Below, one piece after another: positions 8,617 to 58,615 of a DNA stretch of 64,000 nucleotides (position 1 is the first letter of the stretch; each line of letters opens with the position of its first letter). Origin of the DNA: Geminisphaera colitermitum TAV2 (GTDB lineage Bacteria > Verrucomicrobiota > Verrucomicrobiia > Opitutales > Opitutaceae); NCBI RefSeq assembly GCF_000171235.2, contig NZ_ABEA03000188.1:1-64000 (forward strand). Reading direction: 5' to 3'. The translations under genes were made by a program, and so were the position numbers. The notes under the pieces were generated by a model, which did not search any database, was not told where the DNA came from, and worked only from the letters and a program-made list of their open reading frames with translations.

Positions 8617-10152
8617 TCAGCGTGCCCGACTGGCGACGCCGTTGGCGGTGATCGCCATCATCGCCTCTTCCATCACGCGAGCCGAACGCGATGGATCGAA
8701 CTTCGCCGCACAGAACGCTTGCACGCCATCGATGGCCTCGGCAGGCGTCCGGGCGTTCATGATGATGTCGCGGATGGGTGCCAGGTCTCCCCGGAGTGTT
8801 TTTGCCCACTCGGGCGCCGCAGTCTGGGCGATCGCATTGGTTGGGTCGATCAGAGGCGCTCCTGGCGACGCGAAGGCAACGAAGGGACCAGGGGCGGGGG
8901 CAGACGGCATGCGCTCGATCGGGAGGCCGATGCGTTCACTGATGGTTTCCAAGCCGGAATCCGCGATCCGAAGCCCGCCGGCGGCAAGCGAACTGATAAG
9001 CGAGCCCGTGGCCTCGGTTTCATCCGCCTCCAGCGATCCCCATACGGCCAGTGGCGCCCGGCCTCGGTAGCCATTGATGCGGAGGTATTGCGTGAAGAGT
9101 TGATGTCGCAGGGTGGCGGCCAGACGGCGGGCGTCGGACTGGCGCTTGTCCTGGCGTTTGCTGGCCTGGGCATCGGAGGTGCCGGAGTTCATGCCGGTGG
9201 CCTGCGCATCGGAACTGAGGGTTTCACCCAGGATCAGCTTTGATTTCTCGCGGTTGCACAGTTCGAGGAATGTCTGGTAGGCGGCGCCACTGTCGTTGGC
9301 GGCGGCCTGCTTGATTTCGACCTCGGTTTCCTTGCTAATGACGAGACCACCCATTTTCTGAGAAAACTGAAACGCCGACAACAGCACTGCGCGGGAATCA
9401 TCATCGGCCTGGTCATACTTGCCGACGAGGAAAGGGCCGCCGTAGCGATCAAGAAAGCGCGCCCACCAGTCACGATCCATCATGGAAAGCAACCACCAGA
9501 ACACGATCGAACGCATGGGACCGCCCCAGTTGTCGGGTAGTGAAAGTAGATGTCCCCGATGGATGATGTAGCGGCCTTCCTCGGGCTTTTGTCCTCCGGG
9601 GCCGACTGGCCAGCCTTCTGTGTTGGTGGGCAAAATCTCCAACTCCCCCGACGTGTAGGAAAGCAACTGGTAAGGAACGGACGTGAGTTCGGCCAACTCG
9701 TAACGCAGGCCCGGCTTCGAACTGAGGCGGAAGGTTTTTTCCAGAAGCGAAACCGGCCAGAGCACGGAATCCAACAAATGGGCGCAGGCGTTCTCCCATT
9801 TTGGATAATCGGCGATCATTGCTTCGATGACGGCGGCGGCGATGACATCATCGGGATTCTTTTTATCCCACGGCTGGATGCTGAGGGTGTCGCTGGTGAC
9901 GGCCTCTTTGCGATCGGCGAAGCGGCCCTGGAGGTGAGAATCGGATGCGATGATTTCCTGATAGAGCTGAAACAGCCGCGTCACGTCACCGCCCTCGGCG
10001 GCCCGGAAGGTGTCATGCACATCGTCCACGGTCAGCGTGGACGCGATTGAAGTGGGGATGGCGCGGTTGTTGAACAGCGTCACCCGGCGGAGAGGGAGCA
10101 GCGAAGCGAGGTAACGGCTAATGGCCTGAGCGCGTTCTTTGAGTGTAAGCAT
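8617..10152 (-). CDS. Portal protein, Mu gp29-like (DUF935)
   Basis: 511 aa, close to the Mu gp29 length. N-terminal features include TLTVDDVHDTFRAAEGGDV and LFQLYQEIIASDSHLQGRFADRK, typical of DUF935 portals, followed by a long alpha/beta body and a variable Ala-rich C-terminus. It forms the dodecameric DNA channel at the head vertex and docks the terminase. It is the last gene of the leftward operon and ends next to the presumed prophage left end, whereas in Mu it is followed directly by F. Here the F gene is 18 kb away on the other strand. Confidence 0.9.
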   Translation of the reverse strand: MLTLKERAQAISRYLASLLPLRRVTLFNNRAIPTSIASTLTVDDVHDTFRAAEGGDVTRLFQLYQEIIASDSHLQGRFADRKEAVTSDTLSIQPWDKKNPDDVIAAAVIEAMIADYPKWENACAHLLDSVLWPVSLLEKTFRLSSKPGLRYELAELTSVPYQLLSYTSGELEILPTNTEGWPVGPGGQKPEEGRYIIHRGHLLSLPDNWGGPMRSIVFWWLLSMMDRDWWARFLDRYGGPFLVGKYDQADDDSRAVLLSAFQFSQKMGGLVISKETEVEIKQAAANDSGAAYQTFLELCNREKSKLILGETLSSDAQATGMNSGTSDAQASKRQDKRQSDARRLAATLRHQLFTQYLRINGYRGRAPLAVWGSLEADETEATGSLISSLAAGGLRIADSGLETISERIGLPIERMPSAPAPGPFVAFASPGAPLIDPTNAIAQTAAPEWAKTLRGDLAPIRDIIMNARTPAEAIDGVQAFCAAKFDPSRSARVMEEAMMAITANGVASRAR

Positions 10153-10170
10153 GATGTGTGTGTCCTCTGG

Positions 10171-10914
10171 TTAGATGGGACGGATGATGCCGCCCCGTTT
10201 TTGAAATTTTTTCGCCCATGGATTGCGGACGCCGGCGCGCACCGCGCCGCGGTTGACGCCGAGGGTGCCGGTTGGAGCGCCATGCGCATCCGCCCGGCCG
10301 GATTTCGACATGAGGGCATGCAGGGCGAGTTTGCCGCCGTCCCACACGTCGCCGTGTCCGCCGTCCTCCGCGATTGCCGCCACGAAACTGCCGCGATCCC
10401 GCGACACGAGGCGGATGTCAGTCTTGATCCATTCGCATGGCGGGAGCGCAAGGTATCCGTCCTCGATTGTATTGGTAAATAAATTACCAAGATAGGACTT
10501 CATCGTCATGCTCTCGCCCATGTGCTCGATCGTCTCGCTGGCGACGACAAGTTCCACCGGGACGAGTCCGGCAAACTCACGTCGCAGTTGCGCGGCGAAG
10601 AAGCGTTCGCTGGTCGCGTCGATGCAGAGCCGCCTTGCCCGCAGGCCATGCGGGAGTCCGGTCAAAATCGTGCGAAGGATTGCCTTGGTGACGGCGGGAT
10701 CAGCCGTTTTCCACCGCAACACGAGCCGCATGTAGTAGCTCAGCGCCACTTGCTGGCAGACGGACAACGAACTGGGGTTGCTCTTGTCCTTGGTCGTGGT
10801 GGCGATGTCCAAGCCCAGACCGATGCGCGGATGTTCCGGCGAAAAACAGCTCTGCCAATCCACCGGAAGAATGTCGGCGACGTTGACGGTTTTAACTCGG
10901 CGGGACGGCTTCAT
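10171..10914 (-). CDS. Terminase large subunit, nuclease part (split gene)
   Basis: 247 aa from the ATG at 10914, which overlaps the upstream stop as ATGA; the longer ORF in the track is not needed. Acidic nuclease-type motifs are visible: GLGLDIATTTKDKSN near the N-terminus, CIDATSERFF in the middle, and HGDVWDGGKLALHA at the end. This is the order expected for the RNase H-like C-terminal domain of Mu gp28 terminases. The ATPase domain is on a separate gene (11126-12058), with a 72-codon gene between them. The two presumably reassemble into one packaging motor. Confidence 0.8.
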   Translation of the reverse strand: MKPSRRVKTVNVADILPVDWQSCFSPEHPRIGLGLDIATTTKDKSNPSSLSVCQQVALSYYMRLVLRWKTADPAVTKAILRTILTGLPHGLRARRLCIDATSERFFAAQLRREFAGLVPVELVVASETIEHMGESMTMKSYLGNLFTNTIEDGYLALPPCEWIKTDIRLVSRDRGSFVAAIAEDGGHGDVWDGGKLALHALMSKSGRADAHGAPTGTLGVNRGAVRAGVRNPWAKKFQKRGGIIRPI

Positions 10915-11129
10915 GCGAGGGGCGGACGATGGGGGTTGGCTTTGTTGACCCAGGCTTTGCGGCAACGCATCCGGCGATAGCGTTGGCGTTTGAACAGTAG
11001 GTTGAGCACGTCGAAACGGGCACGATCCAGCTTGTCCATCCACGCCACCCAGCCGTGATCTTCGTCGGGAGGTGCGGACTTGAGCAGGTGGCAGTAACGG
11101 ACAACTGCGCGATCGAGTTTCGTGATCAT
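10911..11129 (-). CDS. Small basic protein between the two terminase halves
   Basis: 72 aa, highly basic, with LLFKRQRYRRMRCRKAWVNKA near the C-terminus. It overlaps both neighbours by ATGA, so all three are translationally coupled. I do not recognise the family. It could be a linker or adaptor that joins the terminase halves, or a small DNA-binding protein. It is not a homing endonuclease by length or motif. Confidence 0.7.
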   Translation of the reverse strand: MITKLDRAVVRYCHLLKSAPPDEDHGWVAWMDKLDRARFDVLNLLFKRQRYRRMRCRKAWVNKANPHRPPLA

Positions 11130-12058
11130 TCCACTACTGCCTCCGTGATGTTGGCTCCGACGCAGGTGCCCTTGCCGAGCGCCATGGCGCGACCAATGGC
11201 CATTAGGCTGACGGCGGCCGTGCCACCCGCGATGAACTTCAGGCCGTAGTTGCGATCCCAGGCCGTCTTGTCGAAGGCCAGCGCCCGGTGTTGTTCAGGC
11301 GTGATCTTCTCGCCCGTGTCGGGATGGTGCATTAACACACCAGCAAGCGCGGCATCCCAAGCATCCACCCGGTGGATCATCAGACCGTAGTCTGATTTGT
11401 AAAAATTGCCCGCCGCGTTGGGAGTGAACTCCGTGCCCTCCGGCGGCAAAAGCATCTCGTAGGAATAGTGCTTGTCGTCGGGCGGCGGCGTGGTGGCGAG
11501 GCGGAGACGGAATTGCGGGTTCGACTCCATGAACGGCTCGATCGCTTCGAGGACTTCCTGACAATTCGGCCACCGTCCAAACTCGTCGCCGATGATGTGT
11601 CCTGTCCAGCCGACCGCCGTGTTTGGATTCGGCGCGATCACACGCGTGCGACTGCACGTCGTGCGATCATGCCACAACTTCGCCTCCAGTTTGGAATGCT
11701 CGAACAGATCGCAGAAACCGTCGAAGTCGATGTCGTCGGCGTTGGTCTCCAGCTTCAGTGCATTCGCTGCCGCTACCGCCTTGAGCTTCGCCAGATGATC
11801 GCGCCACGACTGCGCCTCCTTCACGATAATTTCCGTGCCCAGTGCAATGGCCGCCGAAATGATCGACGTGAGCACACCCGGCGTCTCCATCATCCAATCC
11901 AGCGCCTCGTTGCTCAACAAATAGCTCTTCCCTCCCTGCCTTCGCCACACGTAACCGAGACGGCGCAGTGGATGTCGAAACCCAGCCCTCTGGTACGCAC
12001 GAAACGGCACCACACCAGTCTGGGGGGGAGAGGGGGGGCTTGTTTTAGCCTTACCCAT
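11126..12058 (-). CDS. Terminase large subunit, ATPase part (split gene)
   Basis: 310 aa from the ATG at 12058; a start 8 codons upstream is also possible. A Walker A-like RRQGGKSY occurs ~40 residues in and a Walker B HIIGDEFGRW around residue 155. A coupling-motif-like RLATTPPPDD follows. This matches the ATPase half of Mu gp28-type terminases, but the reading frame stops before the nuclease domain. The start lies within the end of the DUF3486 gene, again suggesting coupling. Confidence 0.85.
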   Translation of the reverse strand: MGKAKTSPPSPPQTGVVPFRAYQRAGFRHPLRRLGYVWRRQGGKSYLLSNEALDWMMETPGVLTSIISAAIALGTEIIVKEAQSWRDHLAKLKAVAAANALKLETNADDIDFDGFCDLFEHSKLEAKLWHDRTTCSRTRVIAPNPNTAVGWTGHIIGDEFGRWPNCQEVLEAIEPFMESNPQFRLRLATTPPPDDKHYSYEMLLPPEGTEFTPNAAGNFYKSDYGLMIHRVDAWDAALAGVLMHHPDTGEKITPEQHRALAFDKTAWDRNYGLKFIAGGTAAVSLMAIGRAMALGKGTCVGANITEAVVE

Positions 12059-12746
12059 TACTTGCCTCCTCCACCGGACCAAACATGTGCAAGCGCAATT
12101 GTTCCACCTTCACCGCCGGCTTCGCCTTGCCTTCGGCGATTTCCGCCGCCTTCCGGTCGGAATAAAATTTCAAAAACATCTCCGCCGTCGCCCGCTGCAC
12201 CTTGATTTCCTCCAATGCCAGCTTGCGATCATTCTGCGCCAGTCGCCGCTCATTTTGCTCGATTGTCCGCTCCGACATCCGCGCCTTCTTTGCGTCCGCC
12301 TGACTCTTTTGCAGCCGGGCGAGCGCATCCACAAGGCCGAGGTAGGTGCCCGGTTTTTTCGACAACAGTTTTTTCTGTGCCTCCACATCCAAGCTTTCGA
12401 AAATCATGAGGAGTTGGCCGCCGGCGATGGCCGTGGCGCCCTCCGTAGTGCTTCCGCCGCTACGCTCCGCGAGGGCCAGCGAGTAGTCCGCGAGCCCCTT
12501 GGTGCGGTCGAGTTGTTCGCGTCGCTCGCGCCATTCCTTGTAGCCGCCTTGCCGCCACTCGCTGAGATTTTGTGCGGAGATGGGTTCCTCGCCAAAATAC
12601 TCGTCCAACACCGACAATACCTCCGGCAGCGTGTGCAGCCAGGCGATGATGCGCGGGCCTGGCTCGCCATCGTCCAGACGACGATTGACCTCGTTGCGGA
12701 TAACGAGGGGCAGACGGGCGATCTTACCGGTGCGGGCGGTGGTCAT
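12051..12746 (-). CDS. Mu gp27-like small terminase subunit (DUF3486)
   Basis: 231 aa from MTTARTGKIARLP, a start that forms an ATGA overlap with the stop of the outer spanin gene. The family pattern IARLPLVIRNEVNRRLDDGE and later ISAQNLSEWRQGGYKEW is typical of DUF3486, the DNA-recognition subunit of Mu-type terminases. The middle and C-terminal parts form long charged helices suited to oligomerisation. It lies directly upstream of the ATPase half of the large subunit, as in Mu. Confidence 0.88.
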   Translation of the reverse strand: MTTARTGKIARLPLVIRNEVNRRLDDGEPGPRIIAWLHTLPEVLSVLDEYFGEEPISAQNLSEWRQGGYKEWRERREQLDRTKGLADYSLALAERSGGSTTEGATAIAGGQLLMIFESLDVEAQKKLLSKKPGTYLGLVDALARLQKSQADAKKARMSERTIEQNERRLAQNDRKLALEEIKVQRATAEMFLKFYSDRKAAEIAEGKAKPAVKVEQLRLHMFGPVEEASNG

Positions 12747-19622: not shown

Positions 19623-21590
19623 ATGCCCACCGATTTTCAGGTCAACGAGGAAGCCCGCCGCATCGAAGCCGTGAAGACGATTCTCGTGTTCACGGGGCAG
19701 GGTTTTTCGCAGAACGCCGCCGCCGCGCAGGCCGGGCTTTCCCCGGCCAAGGCGTCGCGCCTCATGAGCCTGTATCAGATCGGTGGATTCGCCGCCCTGC
19801 GCCCCCGCACCACCAACAGCGGACGACGCCCCCTCGTCACCCTCAGCGAGGTGGAGAAAGCCGCCATCCAGCGCCTCACTCTCATGAGCGATCCCCACGA
19901 CCCCCAAAAAACTCGCACCGTCGGCGTCTCCTTCGCCCTGCGCACCTACGCCCGTTCCGAAACCTGCCGCCCCGAACTCGCCGACGTGATCCTCAAACCA
20001 CGCACCAGCAAACACACCCTCACCCGCACCCTCAAACGCCTCGCCCGCCCCACCCAGTCCAGCCGCCTCCTCAACGCCGGCCCCGACACCTTCAATCTCC
20101 ACGGCATCTGCACCCCACGCGATCTCACCTACATCGACTTCGACGGGCAGGAAAAACCCATTCACCCCGGCCTCGTCTTCGAGGCCGACGACATGACCAG
20201 CAACGAACCCTGCTGCGTCGAATGGGACGACCCCGCCGACCCCTGCGCCGCCCGCTACGGCGTGCGCCTCGTGCGCCCCCAAGTCCTCTTCTGGCTCGAT
20301 GTCGGCACCGGCCGCTACGTCGGCTACTCCACCATCCTCCGTTACAACGACGCCTACCGCGCCAAAGATATATTGTGGTCCCTCTCCCACATCTTCCACT
20401 CCGTCGGTGCCCCCCGCTTCCTCCGCTTCGAATACGGCACATGGGACGCCCACCTCATCAACGCCATCCAAAGCGTCCACCACATCTGCCAAATCCAGCG
20501 CGCCACGTCCGCAAAAACCAAATACATCGAAAACCGCTTCAACATGCTCCAAAAATTCCTCGCGCTCGGCGGGGTGAGCATGGGCCGCCACCGCGGCGTC
20601 AAAGAACGTGAAACCAAAGACTGGATCGCCTGCCGCGCCGGCTCCCGCGACCCCCGCCCCCTCTTCCCCACGCTCGCCCAGTGGACCGCCCGCGTGGACG
20701 CCGCCCTCGTCGCCTTCAACGCCGAACCCGTCGAAGGCGAAATCTACGGCCCCGCCAACGCCCGCCGCTTCCACAACCGCCGCGCCTGGATACCCGACGA
20801 AATCTGGCACCAGCACATGGAGACCGCGCCCATGAGGAAGCCGACGCTGGAAGAAAGCTACCGCTTCCTCCCCGAACAAGCCCCCGTCACCATTCGCGGT
20901 GCCCACGTCCGCATCAAAAGCGCCGAGCACGACGCCACCTTCTACTTCTACTCCGATCACTTCGCCCGCCTCGGCGACGGCTATCAAGTCACCGTCTGCT
21001 GTGACCCCTCCCAGCCCCACCTCGGCGCCGCCATTTTGAACCGCGAGACCGGCGCCCGCGCCGCCATCGACCCCGCCTCCCCCGTCGGTCTGGCCAGGCC
21101 CTACCGCGAAGCCCAGCTCATCTGCATCGCGGAGGCCGTCGATCGCGTCCCCCAATTCTCCGCCACCAGCCAGTGGGACGACCGCGCCAGCTTCGAGCGC
21201 CGCCGCCGCTACCGCGAACAATGCCGCCTCCAATACCGCGCCATCATGCCCTTCGGACGCGGCCCCCAGTCCGCCGCCACCGAACACCGCGACGGCCGCG
21301 GCAACGTCGCCACCCTCGCTGTCAACGCCCACCGCCTCTCCGATCCCACCACTTCGACGTTGGATGTTGAACGTTCGACGTTGGACGTTCGGCGCGAAGC
21401 GCCGCGTCCCCTCTCGCCCGCCATCGCCGAGCGCGCCCGCGGGCAGGACACCCGCGCCCTCGTCCGCGAAGCCGCCGGCCGCCTCACACCGGCCGACCTC
21501 ACCGCCGCCACGGAGGATGACGACATCATCACCGAAGCCCCGCCCGCCGCCTTTTCCGCCGACGAAATCGCCAGCCTTCTCAGCCAGTAA
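19623..21590 (+). CDS. MuA-like DDE transposase
   Basis: 655 aa. The N-terminus has a helix-turn-helix (SQNAAAAQAGLSPAKASRLM). The RNase H-like core shows VFEADDM (Asp ~187), FWLDVGTGRYVGYS and KYIENRFNMLQKFL (Glu ~302), followed by a Mu-type C-terminal beta domain (EQAPVTIRGAHVRIKSAEHDATFYFY). It joins phage ends to target DNA in replicative transposition, activated by the MuB-like ATPase downstream. Residues ~577-595 are encoded by the GTTGGA/GTTCGACG dispersed repeat, an in-frame insertion near the C-terminus. Confidence 0.93.
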   Translation: MPTDFQVNEEARRIEAVKTILVFTGQGFSQNAAAAQAGLSPAKASRLMSLYQIGGFAALRPRTTNSGRRPLVTLSEVEKAAIQRLTLMSDPHDPQKTRTVGVSFALRTYARSETCRPELADVILKPRTSKHTLTRTLKRLARPTQSSRLLNAGPDTFNLHGICTPRDLTYIDFDGQEKPIHPGLVFEADDMTSNEPCCVEWDDPADPCAARYGVRLVRPQVLFWLDVGTGRYVGYSTILRYNDAYRAKDILWSLSHIFHSVGAPRFLRFEYGTWDAHLINAIQSVHHICQIQRATSAKTKYIENRFNMLQKFLALGGVSMGRHRGVKERETKDWIACRAGSRDPRPLFPTLAQWTARVDAALVAFNAEPVEGEIYGPANARRFHNRRAWIPDEIWHQHMETAPMRKPTLEESYRFLPEQAPVTIRGAHVRIKSAEHDATFYFYSDHFARLGDGYQVTVCCDPSQPHLGAAILNRETGARAAIDPASPVGLARPYREAQLICIAEAVDRVPQFSATSQWDDRASFERRRRYREQCRLQYRAIMPFGRGPQSAATEHRDGRGNVATLAVNAHRLSDPTTSTLDVERSTLDVRREAPRPLSPAIAERARGQDTRALVREAAGRLTPADLTAATEDDDIITEAPPAAFSADEIASLLSQ

Positions 21591-21615
21591 CCACCACCCG
21601 ACAACCCACGCCGCC

Positions 21616-22530
21616 ATGATCGCCATCAACATCCAACGCCCAACATCCAACACCCAACGTCCAATAAAAAAAGTATCCTCCCCTTCGGAGTTGGATGTTG
21701 GACGTTCGACGTTGGACGTTCGGCGCGAAGCGCCGCGCACGGCCTCCGGCCGCGCCTCCGCCGCCCGCGAAACCTTTGTCGAGACGCCCGCCACCCGCCT
21801 CATCTGGGCCGGCCTCGATTACGCCGTGCGCAACAACTCCATCGCCCTCATCGAAGGCGACACCGGCCACGGCAAAACCCTCGCCACCGAAGCCTGGAGC
21901 CTCGCCCGCCCCCACCTCGCCGTCATCCTCATCGAAGCCCCCTCCATTGGCGGCGTCAGGCTGTTCCTCTCCGAAATCTGCCGCGCCATCGGCGAGACCG
22001 GCAACCTCTCGCTGGCCGAAATGCGCCGCGTCATCCGCGACTGGTTCGCCGAATCCGACAACCGGATACTCATCATCGACCAGGCCCACGACCTCCTCCC
22101 CCGCAGCCGCGGAGCCAAGGCCGACAAAATCGACTTCCTGCGCGAACTCCACGATTTTGCCGAGTGCCCCATCGGCCTGCTCTGCACCGTCAAACTTGTG
22201 CGGGAAATGTCCCGCAGCGCCTACAACTTCGAGCAAATCATGGGCCGCGTCGGGATGCCCGTAAAACTCCCCGCCGAACTCGGCGAGGAGCACTACCGCC
22301 CCCTCATCGTCCCCTGGTTCCCGCGCCCCGGCCCCAAGCTCCTCGCCGCCTGCGGCCAGGTGGCCAACGATAAACTGCCCCGCCAGAAAGGCCGCCTCCG
22401 CCTCCTCTCGCAAATCTGCCGCCTGGCCAACCGCGTGGCCGCGAAAAAAGGCGAAACCCTCGCCGAGCACCACTTCTTCAAAGCCCTCGCCCTGCGCGAC
22501 CAGATGATGGGCAACCCCGCGCACGTCTGA
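21616..22530 (+). CDS. MuB-like AAA+ ATPase
   Basis: 304 aa. Walker A is GDTGHGKT (~81-88) and Walker B is RILIIDQAHDLL (~150). The domain starts at about residue 47. It binds target DNA and stimulates the transposase (family role). The first ~45 residues (QRPTSNTQRPI, then LDVGRSTLDVRREAPR) are translated copies of the same dispersed repeat found near the transposase C-terminus, in inverted and direct orientation, so they are unlikely to be functional family sequence. The start at 21616 is the only ATG that fits. Confidence 0.88.
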   Translation: MIAINIQRPTSNTQRPIKKVSSPSELDVGRSTLDVRREAPRTASGRASAARETFVETPATRLIWAGLDYAVRNNSIALIEGDTGHGKTLATEAWSLARPHLAVILIEAPSIGGVRLFLSEICRAIGETGNLSLAEMRRVIRDWFAESDNRILIIDQAHDLLPRSRGAKADKIDFLRELHDFAECPIGLLCTVKLVREMSRSAYNFEQIMGRVGMPVKLPAELGEEHYRPLIVPWFPRPGPKLLAACGQVANDKLPRQKGRLRLLSQICRLANRVAAKKGETLAEHHFFKALALRDQMMGNPAHV

Positions 22531-23914: not shown

Positions 23915-24472
23915 ATGCCAACAATCGCACAATCCCCCACTCCCCTCGAATTGATCGACGTTCACGCCAAAGCCTACGCCGAGGCCCGCCGCGTGCTCGC
24001 CGAGCGCACCGCCGCCCTGGAAGATGAAGTCCGCGACGCGCACCGTCGCAAGCGCCCCGGCATCAAGACTGCTCTCGCCATCGCGCAGGATACCCAGGCC
24101 AACCTCTCCGCCGCCATCCAGTCCCACCCGGAGCTTTTTGAGAGACCGCGCACCATGACGCTCCACGGCGTCAAAATCGGCTTCCAGAAAGGCAAGGGAA
24201 AGCTCACTTGGGACGATGAGGAATCCGTCGTCGTCCGCATTGAAAAAATGTTCGGGCTCGATGCCGACGCCTACCTTGTCATCAAGAAAAAACCCTCCGC
24301 CACCGCGTTGGGAAACCTCGAAACCCGCGAACTCGCCAAGCTCGGCGTCACCGTCGAAACCACCGGCGACCAAGTCTTCATCAAGACCAGTGACAGCGCC
24401 GTCGATAAGCTCGTCAAAAAGCTTCTCAAGGAAGGAGCGGTTGAGGAAGCGGAAGAGTCCGGCAGCTCATAG
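23915..24472 (+). CDS. gam: Gam-like host-nuclease inhibitor / DNA-end protection protein
   Basis: 185 aa. The Mu Gam family is recognised by the N-terminal coiled helix, TMTLHGVKIGFQKGKGKLTW and the C-terminal region with VRIEKMFGLDADAYLVIKKKPSA. Gam is a bacterial Ku-like dimer that shields linear DNA ends from RecBCD/exonucleases. It lies in its expected place downstream of the A and B genes. Confidence 0.88.
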   Translation: MPTIAQSPTPLELIDVHAKAYAEARRVLAERTAALEDEVRDAHRRKRPGIKTALAIAQDTQANLSAAIQSHPELFERPRTMTLHGVKIGFQKGKGKLTWDDEESVVVRIEKMFGLDADAYLVIKKKPSATALGNLETRELAKLGVTVETTGDQVFIKTSDSAVDKLVKKLLKEGAVEEAEESGSS

Positions 24473-25509: not shown

Positions 25510-25965
25510 ATGTCCGCGCCCTCGCTGCCCATCCAACTGCCCGTTTCGCCCGCCCTCTCGGTGCCCGCCCTGCGCCCCCTGGAACGCGTGCAGGTGGCGC
25601 CGGGCCATTTTGTGGACATGCACCCGTCCGAGGAAAACCCGCCCCGCCACACCCTCACCGAACTCATCCCCGTCGGCGGCGGACTCTACCGGCAAGTCAC
25701 CCGTCTGATGCCCGCCTGGCTCCCCTTCAACGAAGAAACCCTGCGCAAAGTCGGCATCAGCATTTCCAAAAGCACCCTGCACCGCCTCGGGCGCGCCAAC
25801 CTCATCCGCGTCCGCCAGACCAGCCCCTCGTGTTACGAATTTCACTACGACTCCTGGCTCCAGCACTGCGCCGCAGTCGAGGCCGACCCCGAATTTTGGG
25901 AAAAGGAAGTCGAAACCACCGCCGGCAAACGCACCCGATTCCAACTCTACCGCGAAGCACTCTGA
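25510..25965 (+). CDS. Early/middle phage regulatory-like protein
   Basis: 151 aa. After a Pro-rich start the sequence LMPAWLPFNEETLRKVGISISKSTLHRLGRANLIRVRQTSPSCYEFHY looks like a DNA-binding domain with recognition helix ISKSTLHRLGR and a beta wing. It may be an excisionase- or Mor-like regulator. It is the last phage gene before the attC array. Confidence 0.6.
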   Translation: MSAPSLPIQLPVSPALSVPALRPLERVQVAPGHFVDMHPSEENPPRHTLTELIPVGGGLYRQVTRLMPAWLPFNEETLRKVGISISKSTLHRLGRANLIRVRQTSPSCYEFHYDSWLQHCAAVEADPEFWEKEVETTAGKRTRFQLYREAL

Positions 25966-26045: not shown

Positions 26046-26079
26046 AACCCCCTTTGCCGACTTTTGCCGAGGGGTTTTT
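26046..26079 (+). terminator. Possible terminator at the upstream edge of the attC array
   Basis: AACCCC, a 19-nt loop, GGGGTT and a T run on the plus strand. The stem is short, so it is moderate as a terminator. It marks the left edge of the cassette region. Nothing else is seen in 25966-26045. Confidence 0.4.
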
Positions 26080-26086
26080 CCAAGTG

Positions 26087-26293
26087 ATGAAACCTACCGG
26101 GCAACTTTTATCAGACGATCACGAAAACGAAGCTCGTGGAGAAGGTATCTGCGACTTTTGTGGCGAACACGCACCTGCTCTCTGGGTCTTTAATTGCGGC
26201 CCTGTCGCCGGAGCCTGTTATTGCCGAAAATGTGCCCCCTTGTCCGAAACGGATGCGAACACCGAGCGCACTGACGCCGGAGGCGTTCAGTGA
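26087..26293 (+). CDS. Cassette gene 0: small Cys-rich protein
   Basis: 68 aa from MKPTGQLLSDDHENEARG. Two CxxC-type pairs (CDFCGEH and CYCRKCAP) suggest a zinc ribbon. Its end is part of attC1. I could not find this cassette's own leading core site, so the array's left boundary is unclear. Confidence 0.55.
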   Translation: MKPTGQLLSDDHENEARGEGICDFCGEHAPALWVFNCGPVAGACYCRKCAPLSETDANTERTDAGGVQ

Positions 26294-26308
26294 CGCGGCT
26301 GGTTAGCC
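26254..26308 (+). repeat. attC site 1
   Basis: R'' TGCGAAC, stem CACTGACGCC / GGCGTTCAGTG with one unpaired base, R' GTTAGCC. The unpaired base in one arm is the attC feature that sets strand choice. Confidence 0.75.
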
Positions 26309-26319
26309 TGTATCCAATT

Positions 26320-26559
26320 ATGAAATACGCAAAATCACAAAACGGCCTCATCCACCTAACCAACGAGTGCAATTCCGAATATACGCTCTGTGGAGATGCG
26401 TGGAATATCGATTCTGAAGAGGACGGCGTCGAAGAAGGGTTGGCTTGGGTCGATTGGCCAAGAGGCCCTGTCACATGCCCGAATTGTGCGGGTGTCATCC
26501 TGTCTTGTCGCCGCGTTCGAGTAGCTGTGGCTAACACCGAGACGAGGGAACGCCGATGA
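26320..26559 (+). CDS. Cassette gene 1: small protein with CPNC motif
   Basis: 79 aa from MKYAKSQNGLIHLTNECN. It contains C residues at NSEYTLCG and a CPNCAG pair, a possible zinc site, with a central acidic stretch. The start lies 11 bp after the attC1 core and the end runs into attC2, as usual for cassette genes. No function known. Confidence 0.65.
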   Translation: MKYAKSQNGLIHLTNECNSEYTLCGDAWNIDSEEDGVEEGLAWVDWPRGPVTCPNCAGVILSCRRVRVAVANTETRERR

Positions 26560-26620
26560 ACAACGACACGACATCATCAACGGGAACGTCATCGGCGTTC
26601 CCTCGGGCGACTGGTTCGGC
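26529..26620 (+). repeat. attC site 2 (long loop)
   Basis: R'' GGCTAAC, perfect 17-bp stem arms at 26543-26559 and 26589-26605 (CGAGGGAACGCCGATGA and complement), R' GTTCGGC. The 29-nt loop gives a site of ~92 bp. Confidence 0.8.
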
Positions 26621-26633
26621 AGCGGCCGCAAAA

Positions 26634-26885
26634 ATGCGGACACTCCGCCAATGCCTCGGCTTCACTCAGGCCGCGTTCGCGGCTCGCGCTGGAGTCAGTC
26701 GCGAATCCGTCGCCGCCTACGAATGCGGAAATCTCGCATGGCCGGCCTCGGCGATCTCACTCTTGGCTGCGGATAGTGACCTTCGCGCCCGACTCGCGGC
26801 GAAACTCGGCGAGCTAGCAGAGATCGCACGGGGTTTCGAGCTGCCGAACCCGAAAGCGCCCGATCCGAAGGATTCGGGCAGGTGA
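26634..26885 (+). CDS. Cassette gene 2: XRE-family HTH regulator
   Basis: 83 aa from MRTLRQCLGFTQAAFAARAG. The ORF-track start at 26556 would place 26 residues inside attC2, so the later ATG is preferred. The helix-turn-helix covers FTQAAFAARAGVSRESVAAYECG. A free-standing XRE domain in a cassette may be an antitoxin-type regulator, but no toxin partner is next to it. Confidence 0.75.
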   Translation: MRTLRQCLGFTQAAFAARAGVSRESVAAYECGNLAWPASAISLLAADSDLRARLAAKLGELAEIARGFELPNPKAPDPKDSGR

Positions 26886-26895
26886 ATTGTTAGCC
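26843..26895 (+). repeat. attC site 3
   Basis: R'' GCCGAAC, stem GCCCGATCC / GGATTCGGGC with one extra base in the right arm, GAA loop, R' GTTAGCC. Confidence 0.85.
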
Positions 26896-26901
26896 TTTAT
26901 C

Positions 26902-27201
26902 ATGAAATTAGAACTACCAAAAATAACTCTTGAGCAGCGAGAGATGAGCCCGCTGCTCAACATCCTAGGCGAAGCATTCCGCACCGATAATGCTGATGGA
27001 GCCGTAACCGGCCCCGGCGAGCCGGGGCCTGCAAGGGCAGTCCGCGACGGAGCGGTGTTTCGGCATTACGAAGCCTTGTGTGGAGATTTGCGTGCCCGCG
27101 TCGAAGCCATCGCGCAAGAGGCTTTTGTCGCAGGGGCAAATTACGCCAAGGCTAACACCACCGGCCCGGTGGGCGAAGCCTCACCGGAGACACATGGTTA
27201 G
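26902..27201 (+). CDS. Cassette gene 3: small protein, unknown
   Basis: 99 aa from MKLELPKITLEQREMSPL. A helical pattern is seen (FRHYEALCGDLRARVEAIAQEAFVAGANYAKA). The C-terminal ~15 residues are encoded by attC4. The start lies 7 bp after the core site. No family recognised. Confidence 0.65.
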   Translation: MKLELPKITLEQREMSPLLNILGEAFRTDNADGAVTGPGEPGPARAVRDGAVFRHYEALCGDLRARVEAIAQEAFVAGANYAKANTTGPVGEASPETHG

Positions 27202-27203
27202 AC
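27150..27203 (+). repeat. attC site 4
   Basis: R'' GGCTAAC, stem CCGGTGGGC / GCCTCACCGG with one extrahelical T, GAA loop, R' GTTAGAC. Confidence 0.85.
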
Positions 27204-27215
27204 CGTCTTTATTTT

Positions 27216-27602
27216 ATGAATACAAAAAAACTATCAACGCCCATAAGGAAATGCCTCTTCATTCGTGAGAACGGGTTCTACATGCTGGAAATCCCCGAAG
27301 GAACAATCGCGGACAATGCCGAGGCCAACCCCGGCACTCTGCGCGTAGAGGATGCGATAACAGGCGAGGTGCTTTGGTCTAACGTCCGAGATGAGCCATG
27401 CGAGATGGCGAGTAACGAAAATCAAAAATGCTTTACGAATACCTGCGTAGCAACAATCGCATTGGCTCTGGCGTCTTGTTCGGTGGTTTGTTTTTCTTTT
27501 CTTATTACCAGCGACTTTCGCTTGCCGATTTGCTTCTTTTTCAGGCTGACGGTTTTTTGCGGTGCCTCTCAGTTTTTTCAGGCTGACGGTTTTAGTTTTT
27601 AA
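27216..27602 (+). CDS. Cassette gene 4, running through attC5
   Basis: 128 aa by ORF. The first ~55 residues (IRKCLFIRENGFYMLEIPEGTI and on) look like a small beta domain. The rest is translated attC5 and the T-rich next cassette, giving an unnatural Cys/Phe-rich hydrophobic tail. The original stop may have been lost, so only the N-terminal part is likely meaningful. Confidence 0.45.
   Translation: MNTKKLSTPIRKCLFIRENGFYMLEIPEGTIADNAEANPGTLRVEDAITGEVLWSNVRDEPCEMASNENQKCFTNTCVATIALALASCSVVCFSFLITSDFRLPICFFFRLTVFCGASQFFQADGFSF
27377..27484 (+). repeat. attC site 5 (long)
   Basis: R'' GTCTAAC, stem GAGCCATGCGA / TCGCATTGGCTC with an extrahelical base, loop ~50 nt, R' GTTCGGT. Confidence 0.75.
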
Positions 27603-27850
27603 TATATCGCCTCCCCCCCCCCCTCTTACCGAACGTCAAAGATGAGCCGCGTGGCTGCAAACAAAAAAGGGGAATCGCTTTCTCAAAAATATCACGAACA
27701 ACGTGGCGCCAGCCACGTTGGCTCCAGCGCCTTGTTCGGCAGTTTGTCTTCTTTTCTTTTTCAGGCTGACGGGGAGGGGAGGGATAATAATATACTACAA
27801 CTCCGCCACCTGATCTTCTTTTCCGTGCCTCTCAGCTTTGCCGAACACGT
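27479..27850 (+). other. ORF-less cassettes 5 and 6
   Basis: Cassette 5 (27479-27734) and the truncated cassette 6 (from 27735) contain T-rich sequence with three copies of ttttcaggctgacgg and a poly-C run (27612-27624), but no credible gene. The ORF 27642-28022 runs across attC6 into the F gene in the wrong frame. Confidence 0.65.
27629..27740 (+). repeat. attC site 6 (long, branched)
   Basis: R'' ACCGAAC, stem GAGCCGCGTGGC / GCCACGTTGGCTC with an extra base, R' GTTCGGC. The loop includes a secondary hairpin (AACGTGGC/GCCACGTT). A lone R''-type GCCGAAC at 27840-27846 marks the end of the last, incomplete cassette. Confidence 0.78.
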
Positions 27851-27882
27851 AATTCTCCGAACCCGCCTTCGTATATCCACCC

Positions 27883-29457
27883 ATGCCCAGCATCCTTCTC
27901 AAACCCGTTCCGCACACCGAGGCCGTTGCTTGGCTCAAGGGCAAACCTTCGATTGCCTCCAGTGTCTTTGGGAAACTCATCCCGGAGATCAGGGCGCGGG
28001 TGTTTGCCGTGTCGGGCATTGAGTCGGCAAAAGTGCTGCAATCGCTCCGTGACCGCATCGCCGATCTCCCGCTCGGCGGAGATTGGGACGCGATCAAACG
28101 CGACCTCGTCAACGACATCTCCCCGTTCGTCGCGGAGGGTGACGACGCCGAGGCCGCCGCGGAGCGAAAGGCGGAGCTGCTGTTGCGCACGCACGGCTAC
28201 CAATCCTACGCCGCCGCCCAGTATCAGGTCATGGACCGCCAGCGCGACGTGTTCCCCTACTGGCGCTACAACTCCGCGCAGGATGCCCACGTCCGCGACA
28301 GCCACCGCGCCCTCGACGGCGTCGTGTTGCCCCACGACGATCCCTTTTGGACCACCCATTGGCCTCCTTGGGATTATGGGTGCCGCTGCACCACTGTCGG
28401 CCTCAGCCGCTCCGACGTGGAAGACATTGCCGCCGAAGATCAGAAAAAACCGGCGGATCAACGCTCCATCCTCTCCCCCGACCAGCGCCGCATCATGTCC
28501 ACCAGTGGATACCTGGTGCGCGGCCCCACGACTAATATAGATGTGCGCAGCCCGCGGGATCGCGGACGCCCCGACGCTTACTCCTGGCAACCCGGCGAAC
28601 TCCGCCTCCCCGTAGCCGACCTGCGCAAACGCTACGAAGCCCCCGTCTGGTCCGCCTTCGAATCCTTCGCCCGCAAGCAATCGCTGGATGACGGCCGCAC
28701 GCTCTGGGGCTGGCTCGAAGGCGACGACACGGGATCGACAACAAAACCCGCCACGCCCTCGCCGACGCCCGCATTGCCGGAGGAGAAGCCGCTCCGTCTC
28801 ACCCTGCCCGAGCCGGAGCCCGCGCCGGCGAAGCCACGACAAGCGCCGGTCAGCCAGGCGTTGCAGGTAAAGGCCCGCGGCCCCGTCCGCAAAGCCGTGA
28901 AGCGCGCCCTCGAACTGGTGGACAAAGCGCACGATGACGGCGCGCTGCCGCCGCTCCCGGTCACGGGCAGCGCCGGCCATCCCGGTGCCTACGGCGCCTA
29001 TCGCCATGCCATGGGCGGCGCGCCGGTTAACATCGGTGTATCCGAAAAGTCTCCGCACAAGCTCAACACCATGACACACGAGCTGGGGCATTTTCTGGAC
29101 CATCAGGCACTCGGCGAGGCCGGTCGCTTCGCCTCGCAGGAAAGCCCGCTGCTGGAAGGCTGGCGGCGTGTAGTAGCCGACAGCGGCCCGATCCGGCGCA
29201 TCCAGGAAAAGATGGAGACGATCACCCACTCGGGCGTGCGGCAGCACCTGGATTATCTGCTGCGCGGACGGGAAATCTGGGCGCGGGCCTATGCCCAGTA
29301 CGTGGCCACGCGCACCGGGGATGCCGAAATGCTGGCGGAGCTGGACTCCATGCGCAGCAAACCCGGTTACGGCGAATATGTGACCTGGACCGCAGAGGAG
29401 TTTGCACCGATCGCCGAAGAGATTGATGATGTATTCCGCCAGAAAGGATGGATCTGA
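27883..29457 (+). CDS. Mu F-like head morphogenesis protein fused to a zincin-type metallopeptidase domain
   Basis: 524 aa. Residues ~60-180 hold the Mu F domain, with SAQDAHVRDSHRALDGVVLP, an FW element and DYGCRCTTVGL. Residues ~260-300 are a Pro-rich linker. The C-terminal ~200 residues contain THELGHFLDH (HExxH-like HELGH, ~398-402), typical of gluzincin/ADP-ribosyl-toxin-associated metallopeptidases. F is a minor capsid protein that acts early in head assembly. The peptidase could mature the head or act on the cell during entry (inference). First head gene after the attC array. Confidence 0.85.
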   Translation: MPSILLKPVPHTEAVAWLKGKPSIASSVFGKLIPEIRARVFAVSGIESAKVLQSLRDRIADLPLGGDWDAIKRDLVNDISPFVAEGDDAEAAAERKAELLLRTHGYQSYAAAQYQVMDRQRDVFPYWRYNSAQDAHVRDSHRALDGVVLPHDDPFWTTHWPPWDYGCRCTTVGLSRSDVEDIAAEDQKKPADQRSILSPDQRRIMSTSGYLVRGPTTNIDVRSPRDRGRPDAYSWQPGELRLPVADLRKRYEAPVWSAFESFARKQSLDDGRTLWGWLEGDDTGSTTKPATPSPTPALPEEKPLRLTLPEPEPAPAKPRQAPVSQALQVKARGPVRKAVKRALELVDKAHDDGALPPLPVTGSAGHPGAYGAYRHAMGGAPVNIGVSEKSPHKLNTMTHELGHFLDHQALGEAGRFASQESPLLEGWRRVVADSGPIRRIQEKMETITHSGVRQHLDYLLRGREIWARAYAQYVATRTGDAEMLAELDSMRSKPGYGEYVTWTAEEFAPIAEEIDDVFRQKGWI

Positions 29458-33172: not shown

Positions 33173-34075
33173 ATGATCATCACCTCTGCCACTCTCGCCA
33201 AAATCAACAAAGGCTTCCGTTCTCTCTATCTGGAAGCCTTTCAGGGCGGCGCTCCCCGCGTCGCCAGCTACGCCATGCGCGCCACCTCGCAATCCGCCGA
33301 GGAAGTTTACGGCTGGCTCGGCTCCGTGCCCGGTATGCGCGAACTCATCGGCGAAGTCGTCATCCGCAACCTCATCGAGCACGCCTACAGCATCCCGAAC
33401 AAGGAATTTGAAAGCACCATCGCCGTGAAGCGTTCCGCCATCGAGCGCGACAAACTCGGCGTTTACACTCCCCTCTTCCAGGCCATGGGCACCGCCGCCC
33501 GCCAGCACCCTGACGAACTCCTGGCCAACACCATCCTCGGCGGCTTCGAAAAACCCTGCTACACTGGCAAACCCTTCTTCGCCGCCAATCACGAGCCCCA
33601 GAAAGGCAAAACCAAGTTCAGCAACGTCGGCACCAAAAAGCTCTCCGCTGTCAACTTCCGCACCGCCCGCGAGAACATCAAAAGTCGTCTCAATGCCGAC
33701 GGCCGTCCCATGAACCTCGGCCTCGACCTCGTGCTCGTCGTCTCCCCGAAAAACGAAGCCCTCGGCCGCGAAATCCTCGTCGCTGAGCTGGTGGGTGGCG
33801 GCAACACCAACGTCGATAAAGGCACGGCCCGCCTCGAAGTCTGGCCTCAACTCGCCGGCACGCCCGATGCCTGGTTCCTCTTCGAAGTCGGCTACCCGGT
33901 AAAACCCTTCATCCACCAGGTGGAAGTGGAGACCGAGTTCCAGAGCTTGGACAACCCGGCCGACTCCCACGTCCTCCTGAAGAAGGAATACCTGCACCAG
34001 TCCTACGGCCGCTATAACACCGGCTACGGCCTGCCCGAACTCGTCTACGGCTCCGACGGCTCTGCCGCCGCTTAA
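33173..34075 (+). CDS. Mu T-like major head protein
   Basis: 300 aa, the usual Mu gpT length. Diagnostic segments are TLAKINKGFRSLYLEAFQGG near the N-terminus, the FFAANHEP element, and VELVGGGNTNVDKGT-like LVGGGNTN with PEVW-type strands toward the C-terminus. HK97-fold capsid protein that forms the icosahedral shell. Confidence 0.92.
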   Translation: MIITSATLAKINKGFRSLYLEAFQGGAPRVASYAMRATSQSAEEVYGWLGSVPGMRELIGEVVIRNLIEHAYSIPNKEFESTIAVKRSAIERDKLGVYTPLFQAMGTAARQHPDELLANTILGGFEKPCYTGKPFFAANHEPQKGKTKFSNVGTKKLSAVNFRTARENIKSRLNADGRPMNLGLDLVLVVSPKNEALGREILVAELVGGGNTNVDKGTARLEVWPQLAGTPDAWFLFEVGYPVKPFIHQVEVETEFQSLDNPADSHVLLKKEYLHQSYGRYNTGYGLPELVYGSDGSAAA

Positions 34076-49614: not shown

Positions 49615-50081
49615 TTTTGTTCGGCGGCGAGGGCGCGAAAGAGGTCGATGCGGGCGGACTCGACGGCGGCGGAGCCGCGGCGTTTCTCACGTCCCTCGAT
49701 CTGGCGCTGCCAGATGCCGAGAGGCGTGCCATTTGGGAGGTCGCCAATCGGGCGCGTGATCCCGGCATCCGTCATGAGTCGCGACACGTAGGCGCTGCGC
49801 GGGATGAGCGGATTGACAGGCGCATCGGGCAGACTGGCGGGTTTGACCTCCGGTTCGGGAGCGCGCACATCCTCGACCTTGACCGGGTCTTGCGCGGAGG
49901 CGGCGTCCACACATCGCGGGGCCGGTGTCACGGCGGGCTGTGCGGCGGGCGGTTTTTCGATACGCGCAACCATTGCGAGCCGTTCCAACATGGTCGGTTG
50001 TTTGGGCGCTGTCGGCGTGATGTCGGCGAGACAGAACAGGCCGGGCAACATGAGGAAAGGAACGAGCAACAGAGTGCGCAT
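49611..50081 (-). CDS. Secreted Pro-rich protein
   Basis: 156 aa with a signal peptide (LLLVPFLMLPGLFCLAD), a Pro/Ala-rich stalk (residues ~45-85) and a C-terminal domain (SRLMTDAGITRPIGDLPNG, then EKRRGSAAVESARIDLFRAL). ATGA overlap with the DUF1353 gene. Unknown; possibly part of a lysis or envelope module. Confidence 0.55.
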   Translation of the reverse strand: MRTLLLVPFLMLPGLFCLADITPTAPKQPTMLERLAMVARIEKPPAAQPAVTPAPRCVDAASAQDPVKVEDVRAPEPEVKPASLPDAPVNPLIPRSAYVSRLMTDAGITRPIGDLPNGTPLGIWQRQIEGREKRRGSAAVESARIDLFRALAAEQK

Positions 50082-50150
50082 GGCGGCGAATATTTGGGTT
50101 GGTGTTGCATCGGAGCCGCCGTCGCGGCCCCGGTTGTAGTGGCGGATTGA

Positions 50151-50852
50151 TTACGGCTGCGCTTTTTCCGAGACGGCGATGGAAGTCACGAGCTTTTGAA
50201 GCCATGCGTCACGAGCCGGACTAGCGTCTCGTTTGTCCACGGCGCGGGCCTCGGCTTTGAGCAAGGCAAGTTCCTGTGCAGGCGTTTTGGTCAGCAGGTA
50301 TTTGCTGAACCATTGTGTATAACCCTTATCAATCGCCCCCTTGCCGATGGCTTTGATGTAGGCGTTTTCACGAATCGACGGATTTTCCAGACGCTTTGCA
50401 GCCTTGGAAAACGCATGAAGATTGCCAGTCGTCACCTCTGTGACGGCGATTTCTTCGGCGCTGGCGAAGTTGGAGATGTAGAGCGAGGGCGCATACTCAC
50501 GCGCCAGATCCTGCACGGGGGGGATGCCGGGCAATGGCTGAATGGGATCGGTCTCGCGGGTCAGCGCGTTAGTGTAGTTGCGGATAATCAGACCGGCGAT
50601 GTTTGGGGCGAGGGTTTTCACCTCGGCGATGACGGGCAGGCCAAGGGCGAACACGGTGGCATCATTGGTGGCGCGCCATGCCTTGTAATTGGCGGCGCGG
50701 TCGGCCTGAGTGGCACCCTTGGCATACTCGGTTTCACCCTGTTTTTGCAGGGCAACGGCCTGTTGCGCGGCAGACAAAACCGGCGCGGGAGCGGCGGCGA
50801 AAAGCGCGCCGGCAAAGCTGGCAACGCTGAGGAGGATCATGAATTTTTTCAT
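50151..50852 (-). CDS. Secreted helical protein
   Basis: 233 aa with a signal peptide (MILLSVASFAGALFAAAPAP), then a helical body: LPVIAEVKTLAPNIAGLIIR, NLHAFSKAAKRLENP, TQWFSKYLLTKTPAQELAL. No catalytic motif recognised. It is exported, which is unusual for a virion component and suggests action in the periplasm during lysis or entry. Confidence 0.6.
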   Translation of the reverse strand: MKKFMILLSVASFAGALFAAAPAPVLSAAQQAVALQKQGETEYAKGATQADRAANYKAWRATNDATVFALGLPVIAEVKTLAPNIAGLIIRNYTNALTRETDPIQPLPGIPPVQDLAREYAPSLYISNFASAEEIAVTEVTTGNLHAFSKAAKRLENPSIRENAYIKAIGKGAIDKGYTQWFSKYLLTKTPAQELALLKAEARAVDKRDASPARDAWLQKLVTSIAVSEKAQP

Positions 50853-50913
50853 GGTGTGTTATGTTGGTTTTGTATTTTATTTACGAATACCAGCGAACGT
50901 CGCCGGAAATGGA

Positions 50914-51492
50914 TCAGGGGTTGGGGGCAACGAGCGCAAAGGTGGGCACGATGGGGTGCCAGATGTTTTCATAAGAGCCGCCGCTGATGCGCTGGTAACT
51001 CCAGATGAGGTTCGGGTTGTCTGGCCGGATCGTTACATCAACGGGGACAACCACGATGGCAGCGGCAATGGTCGCGCCGGTAGAACTGCGCATCGCGTAG
51101 ATGCTTTCAGTGGTGGACTGTCTGCGCCAGCGGCGGCGGTCGGTCCAGCCCGAATCCGTGAAAAACACGGTGGGTTTCGGCCCGGTCTGGCCTGACACTG
51201 CCACGCGCGCGGGGTCTGGCGAATGATAATACAGATACAAATCCGTAAACGGCGAGTGCTCGCCGAAATTCGAAACCGTGGCCTTGAGTTCGAAATCGGT
51301 AAAATTGGCTCCGAGCGGAAGAGTGAAAATGGCGAACTTGGGCGCACGCGCCAAGCCGTTGACCGTTGTTCCCTCTGGCACGGTCAGCGTGCCAGAGATT
51401 TCAGTCTGCCCGGTCAGTTTCGCGTCTTTGATCGGTGTGGCGGCATACGCCGCGCCTGCCACAAAAAGGAAAATGAAGAGAATGCGTGTCAT
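50914..51492 (-). CDS. Secreted beta-rich protein
   Basis: 192 aa from MTRILFIFLFVAGAAYA. After the signal peptide comes a beta-sandwich-like sequence (TQTEISGTLTVPEGTTVNG-type LTVPEGTTVNGLA, then IWSYQRISGGSYENIW). The start overlaps the preceding stop. Possibly a spike assembled outside the inner membrane; function unknown. Confidence 0.55.
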   Translation of the reverse strand: MTRILFIFLFVAGAAYAATPIKDAKLTGQTEISGTLTVPEGTTVNGLARAPKFAIFTLPLGANFTDFELKATVSNFGEHSPFTDLYLYYHSPDPARVAVSGQTGPKPTVFFTDSGWTDRRRWRRQSTTESIYAMRSSTGATIAAAIVVVPVDVTIRPDNPNLIWSYQRISGGSYENIWHPIVPTFALVAPNP

Positions 51493-51869
51493 GGCAAAAT
51501 GAGGCAAACGAGGATGTGCCCGGAGATGGATGGCGGGCCGGAGAGTTCGACGGTGAAGCCGTACATCGTGATCGACTCGGCAACTGGGTTTGCCCAAAGG
51601 TTATCGCCGTTTTCGGGCTTGGTAATGGAACAAAAGATACGCGATGGAGGCGCGGCAAAAGGGGAGGGGAATTCGACAATCACGGCGGATGCACCAGCGG
51701 AAATGGGTGTGGATACCAGCACAGGGGCGAATCCGCCGCCGCCGATCTTCGACACGGCGAGACGGCGCGAGCCGGACGGCCCGGACACCATCAGAAAATC
51801 ATCTGGGTCGATTACCTCGGCATCGGGTAGATCGGTCAACTTGGTCGGGATGTAGTCTTCAGGGCTCAT
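51489..51869 (-). CDS. Small structural/spike-like protein
   Basis: 126 aa. The N-terminal motif LTDLPDAEVIDPDDFLMV, followed by GSRRLAVSKIGGGG, is the short coiled-trimer start seen on many phage fibre proteins. The C-terminus is a beta domain (ISGHILVCLILP). Probable vertex decoration. Confidence 0.6.
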   Translation of the reverse strand: MSPEDYIPTKLTDLPDAEVIDPDDFLMVSGPSGSRRLAVSKIGGGGFAPVLVSTPISAGASAVIVEFPSPFAAPPSRIFCSITKPENGDNLWANPVAESITMYGFTVELSGPPSISGHILVCLILP

Positions 51870-51870
51870 T

Positions 51871-52446
51871 TTAGAGAATCCACCAAAGTTCGTGCATGGC
51901 GACGGCCACCGGCGCCGCGTTGGGATTGTGAATGCGCAGATAACGGCTGGTCTGGACGTTGATCGTTTCGCCGGGCCGGACTACGCCGCCCGGGTTGGGA
52001 GAGATGTTGTCGAATAGTTGCAGGGTGCCTTCTGGAGACAGGTTGGAAATAACCACACATTTGCGGCGTGTGCGGTTGGCTCTGGGGATGCCGTCCAACA
52101 CGACGGGGGCGACTGTCGTGATCGTGTCGCCGGGGATGGTGACAAACTCGGTGTTTTCCTCAATCTGGCGGCGGCCCGCCTCAACAAATTCCGTGTACCC
52201 CACCCATACTGAGATTTTCGCGGTTTGCCTGTCCAACATCCGCAATTCGATTCGCTCAAAATCCTCGCCTTCGAGGAAGCGAAAGCCTTCCCCGGCGTGA
52301 AGCACGCTTTCGGGGCAATTATCCACTTTGACAATGACGGCGGAGGGCGCATCCACGATGCGGAAATAACGTCCGCTCGCCGAAAGCGGGTAGGTTTCGC
52401 CCTCCGGAATAATGGGGCGGACTAGACGGCTGTGATATTGGATCAT
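51871..52446 (-). CDS. Candidate penton/vertex protein
   Basis: 191 aa from MIQYHSRLVRPIIPEGETYP. All-beta character, with FRIVDAPSAVIVKVDN, GFRFLEGEDFERIELRMLD and NVQTSRYLRIHNPNAAPVAV suggesting two stacked beta-sandwich units. Location next to the capsid genes makes it a candidate for the single-jelly-roll penton base. Assignment by fold impression only. Confidence 0.5.
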   Translation of the reverse strand: MIQYHSRLVRPIIPEGETYPLSASGRYFRIVDAPSAVIVKVDNCPESVLHAGEGFRFLEGEDFERIELRMLDRQTAKISVWVGYTEFVEAGRRQIEENTEFVTIPGDTITTVAPVVLDGIPRANRTRRKCVVISNLSPEGTLQLFDNISPNPGGVVRPGETINVQTSRYLRIHNPNAAPVAVAMHELWWIL

Positions 52447-52448
52447 GG

Positions 52449-53327: not shown

Positions 53328-53328
53328 T

Positions 53329-53721
53329 TTATTTCCTCCGTTTTCGATTTTTCCCGCCCGTCAAAAAAGCGATGAGCCCGCCAACAAAAACGACGGCGGC
53401 GGCGACCCCGCCAATGAGAATCCATGTAGTGCCTGACAAACTACTGACGGCGGTTGTCATGGTTTGGAAGGGGTTGGACGGCGACGACGGTGCGTAATTT
53501 AGGGGGACGGACGAACCATCCTTCGCCGTGGCGGCTATGGCTTCGGCAGTGGCGGTAACTCCGTTGTCTCTGGATGTCAGGTCCGTGTTTGTCGAAATGC
53601 CTCCCGTCCAATTCCCTCCGACAATCTTGGGAGAAAAAATCACAGTGCCAGCGTTGCTCGCGGCCCCGATGGCGTCGGTGCCTGCAAATGAGTTGCTGCC
53701 TGCGATGTCGAGCCAGCTCAT
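53329..53721 (-). CDS. Tail-anchored small virion-type protein
   Basis: 130 aa: Asn/Ser/Thr-rich N-terminus (MSWLDIAGSNSFAGTDAIGA) and C-terminal membrane helix (TTWILIGGVAAAVVFVGGLI) with a basic end (GGKNRKRRK). Starts 7 bp downstream of its neighbour. Confidence 0.62.
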   Translation of the reverse strand: MSWLDIAGSNSFAGTDAIGAASNAGTVIFSPKIVGGNWTGGISTNTDLTSRDNGVTATAEAIAATAKDGSSVPLNYAPSSPSNPFQTMTTAVSSLSGTTWILIGGVAAAVVFVGGLIAFLTGGKNRKRRK

Positions 53722-53727
53722 GGTGGA

Positions 53728-54000: not shown

Positions 54001-54076
54001 GTGCGTTTTTTCCCATCCGCGCCTGTGCGGACGCGGACGGGGGACGTTGAGCGTTGCGGTTGATGGTGCGTAGGAC

Positions 54077-54898: not shown

Positions 54899-54946
54899 GG
54901 TGTGTTTTCGGTGTTGTGGGTTGCGGTTGGCGGGTGGATGTGGCGG

Positions 54947-55881: not shown

Positions 55882-55883
55882 AC

Positions 55884-56126: not shown

Positions 56127-56144
56127 TGTTTGGCTTGGTCGAGA

Positions 56145-57995: not shown

Positions 57996-58004
57996 AACAT
58001 GTCG

Positions 58005-58530: not shown

Positions 58531-58615
58531 GATTTCCGTGCCTCCTCTGAGGTGTTACGCCGAGGTCGAAAAATGCACGATTTCACCACACTGTTTTTTC
58601 GCGTCGATTTCATCG

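Follow-up and report, generated by a model that had tools for sequence, protein, structure and literature searches.

What is the run of short genes and repeated hairpins that separates the early genes of a Mu-like prophage from its head gene F, and how did it come to lie there? We addressed this question in a window of 64,000 nucleotides (positions 1-64000 of contig C38, genome G000), which belongs to a 5.67-Mb draft genome of 225 contigs. The preliminary description of this DNA had placed the run between the early genes and F of a Mu-like prophage, and profile matches to homologues of A, B, Gam, F, S, I and T in its flanks bear this out. The plus strand encodes a Mu-like transposase A (19623-21590; phrog_310, E 4e-13), a Mu B-like transposition ATPase (21364-22530; phrog_296, E 3e-25; AAA_22, TniB), a Gam-like end-protection protein (23915-24472; PF07352, phrog_491), the Mu F-like head protein (27883-29457; PF04233, E 8e-18) and a Mu gpT-like major head protein (33173-34075; PF10124, E 1e-64); a virion morphogenesis protein and a protease I complete the flanks. 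The element, IMG/VR provirus 2517572100_000009, thus has the MuA-type transposase, MuB ATPase, Gam and Mu-type head genes by which Mu-like phages are recognized. It differs from other Mu-like prophages in the insertion between early and head genes, and in having a portal gene and a weak match to terminase (8617-12082) on the minus strand, the other head genes being on the plus strand.

The inserted run spans 26254-27846 and consists of six consecutive cassettes bounded by 7-bp R′ and R″ boxes that are exact reverse complements, as had been proposed: 26302-26535 (GTTAGCC/GGCTAAC), 26614-26849, 26889-27156, 27197-27383, 27478-27634 and 27734-27846. It does not begin at 26046, where the preliminary description had set its edge; the leading piece is the start of a phage gene (26087-26293, plus strand) truncated by the array, and sequence comparison finds its opening, MKPxGQLLxDDH, in a sister prophage on contig C132 as well. 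A parser that required a box match, spacers of 6-11 nt, a stem and an inner stem, the geometry of an attC hairpin, returned a chain of six at this array. In 300 dinucleotide shuffles it returned no chain (269) or a chain of one (31) and nothing longer, and window tiles outside the array gave chains of at most two, the tile with two being a second real array. Chaining of R′/R″ boxes without hairpin geometry was dropped as a test, chance chains being numerous.

Homologous prophages, to which the preliminary description had pointed as a check, do not carry these ORFs at the corresponding position. There are two more Mu-like prophages in the genome, on contigs C116 and C132. The array and its ORFs are absent from the corresponding place in the C116 prophage and in genome G115, and the C132 prophage has a different array between the same flanks (F and a homologue of 25510-25965). 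The small size of the array ORFs, most of which lack family matches, would suit ordinary phage accessory genes that happen to lie among chance repeats, a reading that is contradicted by the shuffle test, by the absence of the ORFs from the corresponding place in related prophages and by covariation in the attC hairpins (52 double-change cells versus 17.6 in shuffles), and to which we attach practically no probability.

Single-strand folds gave the expected hairpins for the six attC, which all lie on the minus strand: a1 (26254-26308), a2 (26529-26620), a3 (26843-26895), a4 (27150-27203), a5 (27377-27484) and a6 (27628-27740), the last two with long loops. An extrahelical base had been ascribed to all of them; five have it, in each case a T, and the sixth, a2, is a perfect 17-bp stem that lacks it. 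Rfam at gathering thresholds produced no match. Our own covariance model, trained on 15 short-loop attC, accepted four of the six sites at E < 0.001; both a1 (E 1.3e-4) and a2 (E 9.6e-7) were held out of the training set. The long-loop sites a5 and a6 were missed by this short-loop model, and their assignment is based on geometry and exact box matches.

Numbered from the side of F, the plus-strand cassettes occupy 27634-27845 (cassette 1, 212 bp, defined by the R-box chain), 27383-27633 (cassette 2, 251 bp), 27156-27382 (cassette 3, 227 bp), 26849-27155 (cassette 4, 307 bp), 26535-26848 (cassette 5, 314 bp) and 26260-26534 (cassette 6, 275 bp, distal). The short ORF expected after every core is clear in four of them, starting at 26320 (to 26559, cassette 6), at 26556 (to 26885, cassette 5, a helix-turn-helix protein whose start codon falls within the attC loop), at 26902 (to 27201, cassette 4) and at 27216 (cassette 3; MNTKKLSTPIRKC..., extending into the next attC). 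No convincing ORF was found in the two cassettes adjoining F, of which cassette 2 has only a small one, and their attC are the weakest of the array. The sequence TTTTTCAGGCTGACGG occurs three times inside cassettes 1 and 2 (27537-27776).

The arrays on C38 and C132 share a terminal sequence of about 38 bp. In the window this attI-like site lies on the minus strand at 27840-27877 (ORF-strand GCCGAACACGTAATTCTCCGAACCCGCCTTCGTATATC), immediately before F, with its R box at 27840-27846. A search with the pattern AACAnnTnATTCnnCnAACnnnnnTTCGTATAT, with open spacers and at most three mismatches, found ten copies in the genome, and the reversed-pattern control found none. In filled copies the first 7 bp are the box of the adjoining cassette; two copies, on C116 (L046:12563) and C218 (L048:10156), are empty, and both have the R box GCGTAAC. 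Twenty aligned copies are near-invariant at AACA..T.ATT.....AA......TTCGTATA, positions that are partly set by the search pattern. From its position and conservation, we take the site to be the attI at which cassettes would enter. A search of 372 further genomes from the same order did not find it. Matches from a relaxed scan on AT-rich contigs (L053-L057, L060, L067, L069, L070) have no attC and were set aside as chance or unrelated, as were six marine viral contigs (L120-L124, L126) in which a site-like AATCAACATGTGATTCTGACAAAAACGTTTCGTACAT is conserved with no attC nearby.

Across the genome, all 18 matches of the covariance model at E < 1e-3 fall at site-bearing loci, on the same strand as the site, and no other confident attC array was found. 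A single weak attC-like match (E 0.006) lies at C220:35753-35807 in the same genome, where no docking site is known. Within 1.5 kb of 29 intI loci from the same order there was one weak match to the model, so these integrons use another class of attC or have none within that distance.

A record of insertion comes from a pair of related prophages with double-jelly-roll capsids. On C218 the site is empty and reads GCGTAAC-ACCTGATTC, without a cassette, and on C52 a segment of 1053 bp is inserted between two copies of GCGTAAC; the flanks of the two are 97.5% identical over 642 bp and 99.3% identical over 1500 bp. An insert that leaves the 7-bp box duplicated is the trace that remains when an integron cassette enters the R box of attI. 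This pair also bears on the proposal that the 38-bp site serves chiefly as a promoter or translation start for the gene behind it, and that cassettes end there by chance. Such a function would account for the near-invariance of the TTCGTATATC part, which is often a few bases before an ATG, and is at odds with the insertion on C52 exactly at the site, with the match between the first 7 bp of the site and the adjoining cassette box, and with the C116 copy, which follows the major head gene instead of preceding F and has no gene beginning immediately after it. We consider it very improbable as the main function, and it is possible that the docking site has a double role, as attI and as a promoter or translation-start element.

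The orientation of the cassettes departs from that of a standard integron. On the ORF strand the attC have a 6-bp outer stem and spacers of about 9 nt, and the extrahelical base is in the 3′ half in 27 of the 28 attC that have one (a T in 20). Set against the geometry of the aadA7 attC, these features mark the ORF strand as the probable bottom strand of attC. The canonical frame would then run leftwards from the site on the minus strand, from attI through six cassettes, each ending in its attC, to the broken phage gene at 26087, with attI at the 3′ end of the ORFs and the ORFs facing it. On this polarity, which is opposite to that assumed previously, the core described as leading each cassette is its distal attC box, and the distal box of a1, TGCGAAC, would be the original R box of attI. 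In a rough count, the longest ORF faces attI in 24 of 32 cassettes. Expression from a Pc beside attI, as in a typical integron, is therefore not what this arrangement offers, since an outward-reading promoter at attI would not express ORFs that face it; rightward phage transcription could instead express the cassettes and then continue into F. Most attI copies, including that in the window (27840-27852), supply an in-frame stop to the adjoining cassette ORF (AAC ANN TRA; AAC ACC TGA, AAC AAG TGA). As the boxes are often in frame as AAC, several attI-adjoining ORFs end in ...N-T-stop or ...N-K-stop, and several cassette ORFs are thus open-ended at the recombination junction.

Beside the Mu-like prophage, on the minus strand at 50000-61010, the window holds a tailless double-jelly-roll prophage with a cassette array of its own. 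Its genes include a P2-type double-jelly-roll major capsid protein (54077-54898, minus strand; PF18628, PF25513), an ATPase and a 572-aa replication-like protein. A second attI-like site lies on the plus strand at 57185-57222, with the ORFs on the minus strand, followed by a cassette encoding a DpdA-family protein (57217-58038, minus strand; ORF 57210-57995; PF23859, E 3e-38) and two further minus-strand cassettes recognized by R-box pairs (58039-58554), the distal box of which, GCGTAAC, is at 58554-58560, as identified from the junction sequence. The attC at 58231-58288 was recovered as a hold-out of the model (E 0.002). The DpdA cassette is identical at 828 of 828 nucleotides to one on C65, and the identity stops at the R boxes; C106 and C53 likewise have in common a 275-bp cassette (98.5% identity). 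The carriers of the site are diverse: double-jelly-roll elements on C38, C52 and C218, Mu-like prophages on C38, C116 and C132, a tailed prophage with intI on C100, a tailed prophage with an integrase and an exonuclease on C106, and elements with a helicase and methyltransferase on C53 and C65.

That no integrase is present holds for the C38 array itself; elsewhere in the genome there is one full intI, on C100, the only one in a draft of 225 contigs from which a further integrase could be missing. It lies on a separate tailed prophage, directly downstream of a copy of the docking site that has two mismatches and is among the more divergent ones. The protein scores 273.9 bits against TIGR02249 (cut-off 265) and aligns with 2a3v, the structure of the Vibrio cholerae integron integrase, at E 4e-43, and the alignment covers both the integron-specific insert and the catalytic residues. 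The surrounding segment, IMG/VR provirus 2517572100_000006, encodes a small terminase and a major head protein. Other viral contigs, in which the site is present too, encode relatives at 90, 75 and 71% identity, and these form one clade with the C100 protein (support 98/96); a further relative, at 74%, is found on 3300049823_000465. Genomes from the same order encode relatives at about 33-44% identity, which fall outside this phage clade, and among the matches listed to named phages and plasmids the best full-length ones are 31-46% identical. In all five phage intI genes examined, the docking site is directly upstream of intI. The genome encodes other tyrosine recombinases, including the phage integrase on C106, and one of these, or a Xer protein, might move the cassettes with the C100 IntI as a passenger. 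We regard this as highly improbable, given that in five separate phage records IntI is the only recombinase with the site at the start of its gene, and that attC hairpin geometry is, to our knowledge, specific to integron integrases.

Arrays of attC without a nearby integrase are called CALINs, the label given to this locus in the preliminary description. The six attC and the lack of a local intI agree with it, and the attI platform at 27840-27877 does not. Phage genomes are known to carry attC cassette arrays, some of them without intI (Qi et al. 2023, PMC9892861), and the capture of a fragment of a chromosomal integron by illegitimate recombination, an origin proposed for phage CALINs (PMC9892861), would leave an inert array of this kind. 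For the locus studied here such an origin is improbable: every array is closed by this attI-like site, which is found empty as well, the genome has neither a further intI nor a further confident attC array, sister prophages differ in their cassettes at the same spot, and unlike elements hold identical cassettes. We think it very likely, instead, that the six short genes are integron cassettes inserted successively at an attI owned by the phage, most likely by a phage-encoded IntI acting in trans. An IntI of the C100 type would recombine attC in single-stranded form with the attI docks of other prophages that share its cell, and insertion, excision and exchange could all proceed in this way. 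The earlier suggestion that a phage genome served as cassette acceptor is upheld as regards cassettes of integron type, and has to be widened from a single event to a site present in ten copies in one genome.

The system resembles sedentary chromosomal integrons in its logic of attI, attC array and IntI, in R′/R″ matching and in the extrahelical base of attC. It differs from them in being carried by prophages, with about ten sites in one genome and one intI for all, and in the cassette ORFs facing attI. In the inverted integrons of Treponema the order is intI, attI, cassettes (PMC3607928), and here it is cassettes, attI, intI. The attC arrays of phages, including those without intI, are a close precedent (PMC9892861): five of six phage attC tested were recombined by IntI1, and DNA-modification genes are among the cassettes (PMC9892861). 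The complete phage integrons in that study had been captured from hosts (Vibrio IntIA, class 1, Shewanella; PMC9892861), in contrast to the C100 IntI, with its 31-46% identity to the named phage and plasmid matches listed, and to the conserved attI that here is found on its own, with no intI, in many unrelated phages. In the open-access journal papers that we searched, neither stand-alone attI docks common to phages nor a clade of phage IntI proteins is reported, and we provisionally regard both as new.

Integrons are usually viewed as bacterial gene-capture platforms that are occasionally picked up by phages. Here the integrase belongs to a phage clade, and viruses that differ in capsid and in mode of replication have its docking site in common. 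With some confidence, we propose that this is a dedicated system of phage gene exchange, in which a phage IntI lineage acts on corresponding attI docks of unrelated viruses (Mu-like, other tailed and tailless double-jelly-roll phages) that share a host cell, so that cassettes, DNA-modification genes for example, pass between them. If so, anti-restriction and accessory genes would be swapped among phages in a modular, site-specific manner, and some orphan attC clusters in phages could be docks on which an integrase acts in trans. Empty docks, filled docks and intI occur together in one polylysogenic genome, which thus provides a directly testable system. The site with its cassettes also occurs in viral contigs from other samples and isolates, one of which, 42.6 kb in length, has three.
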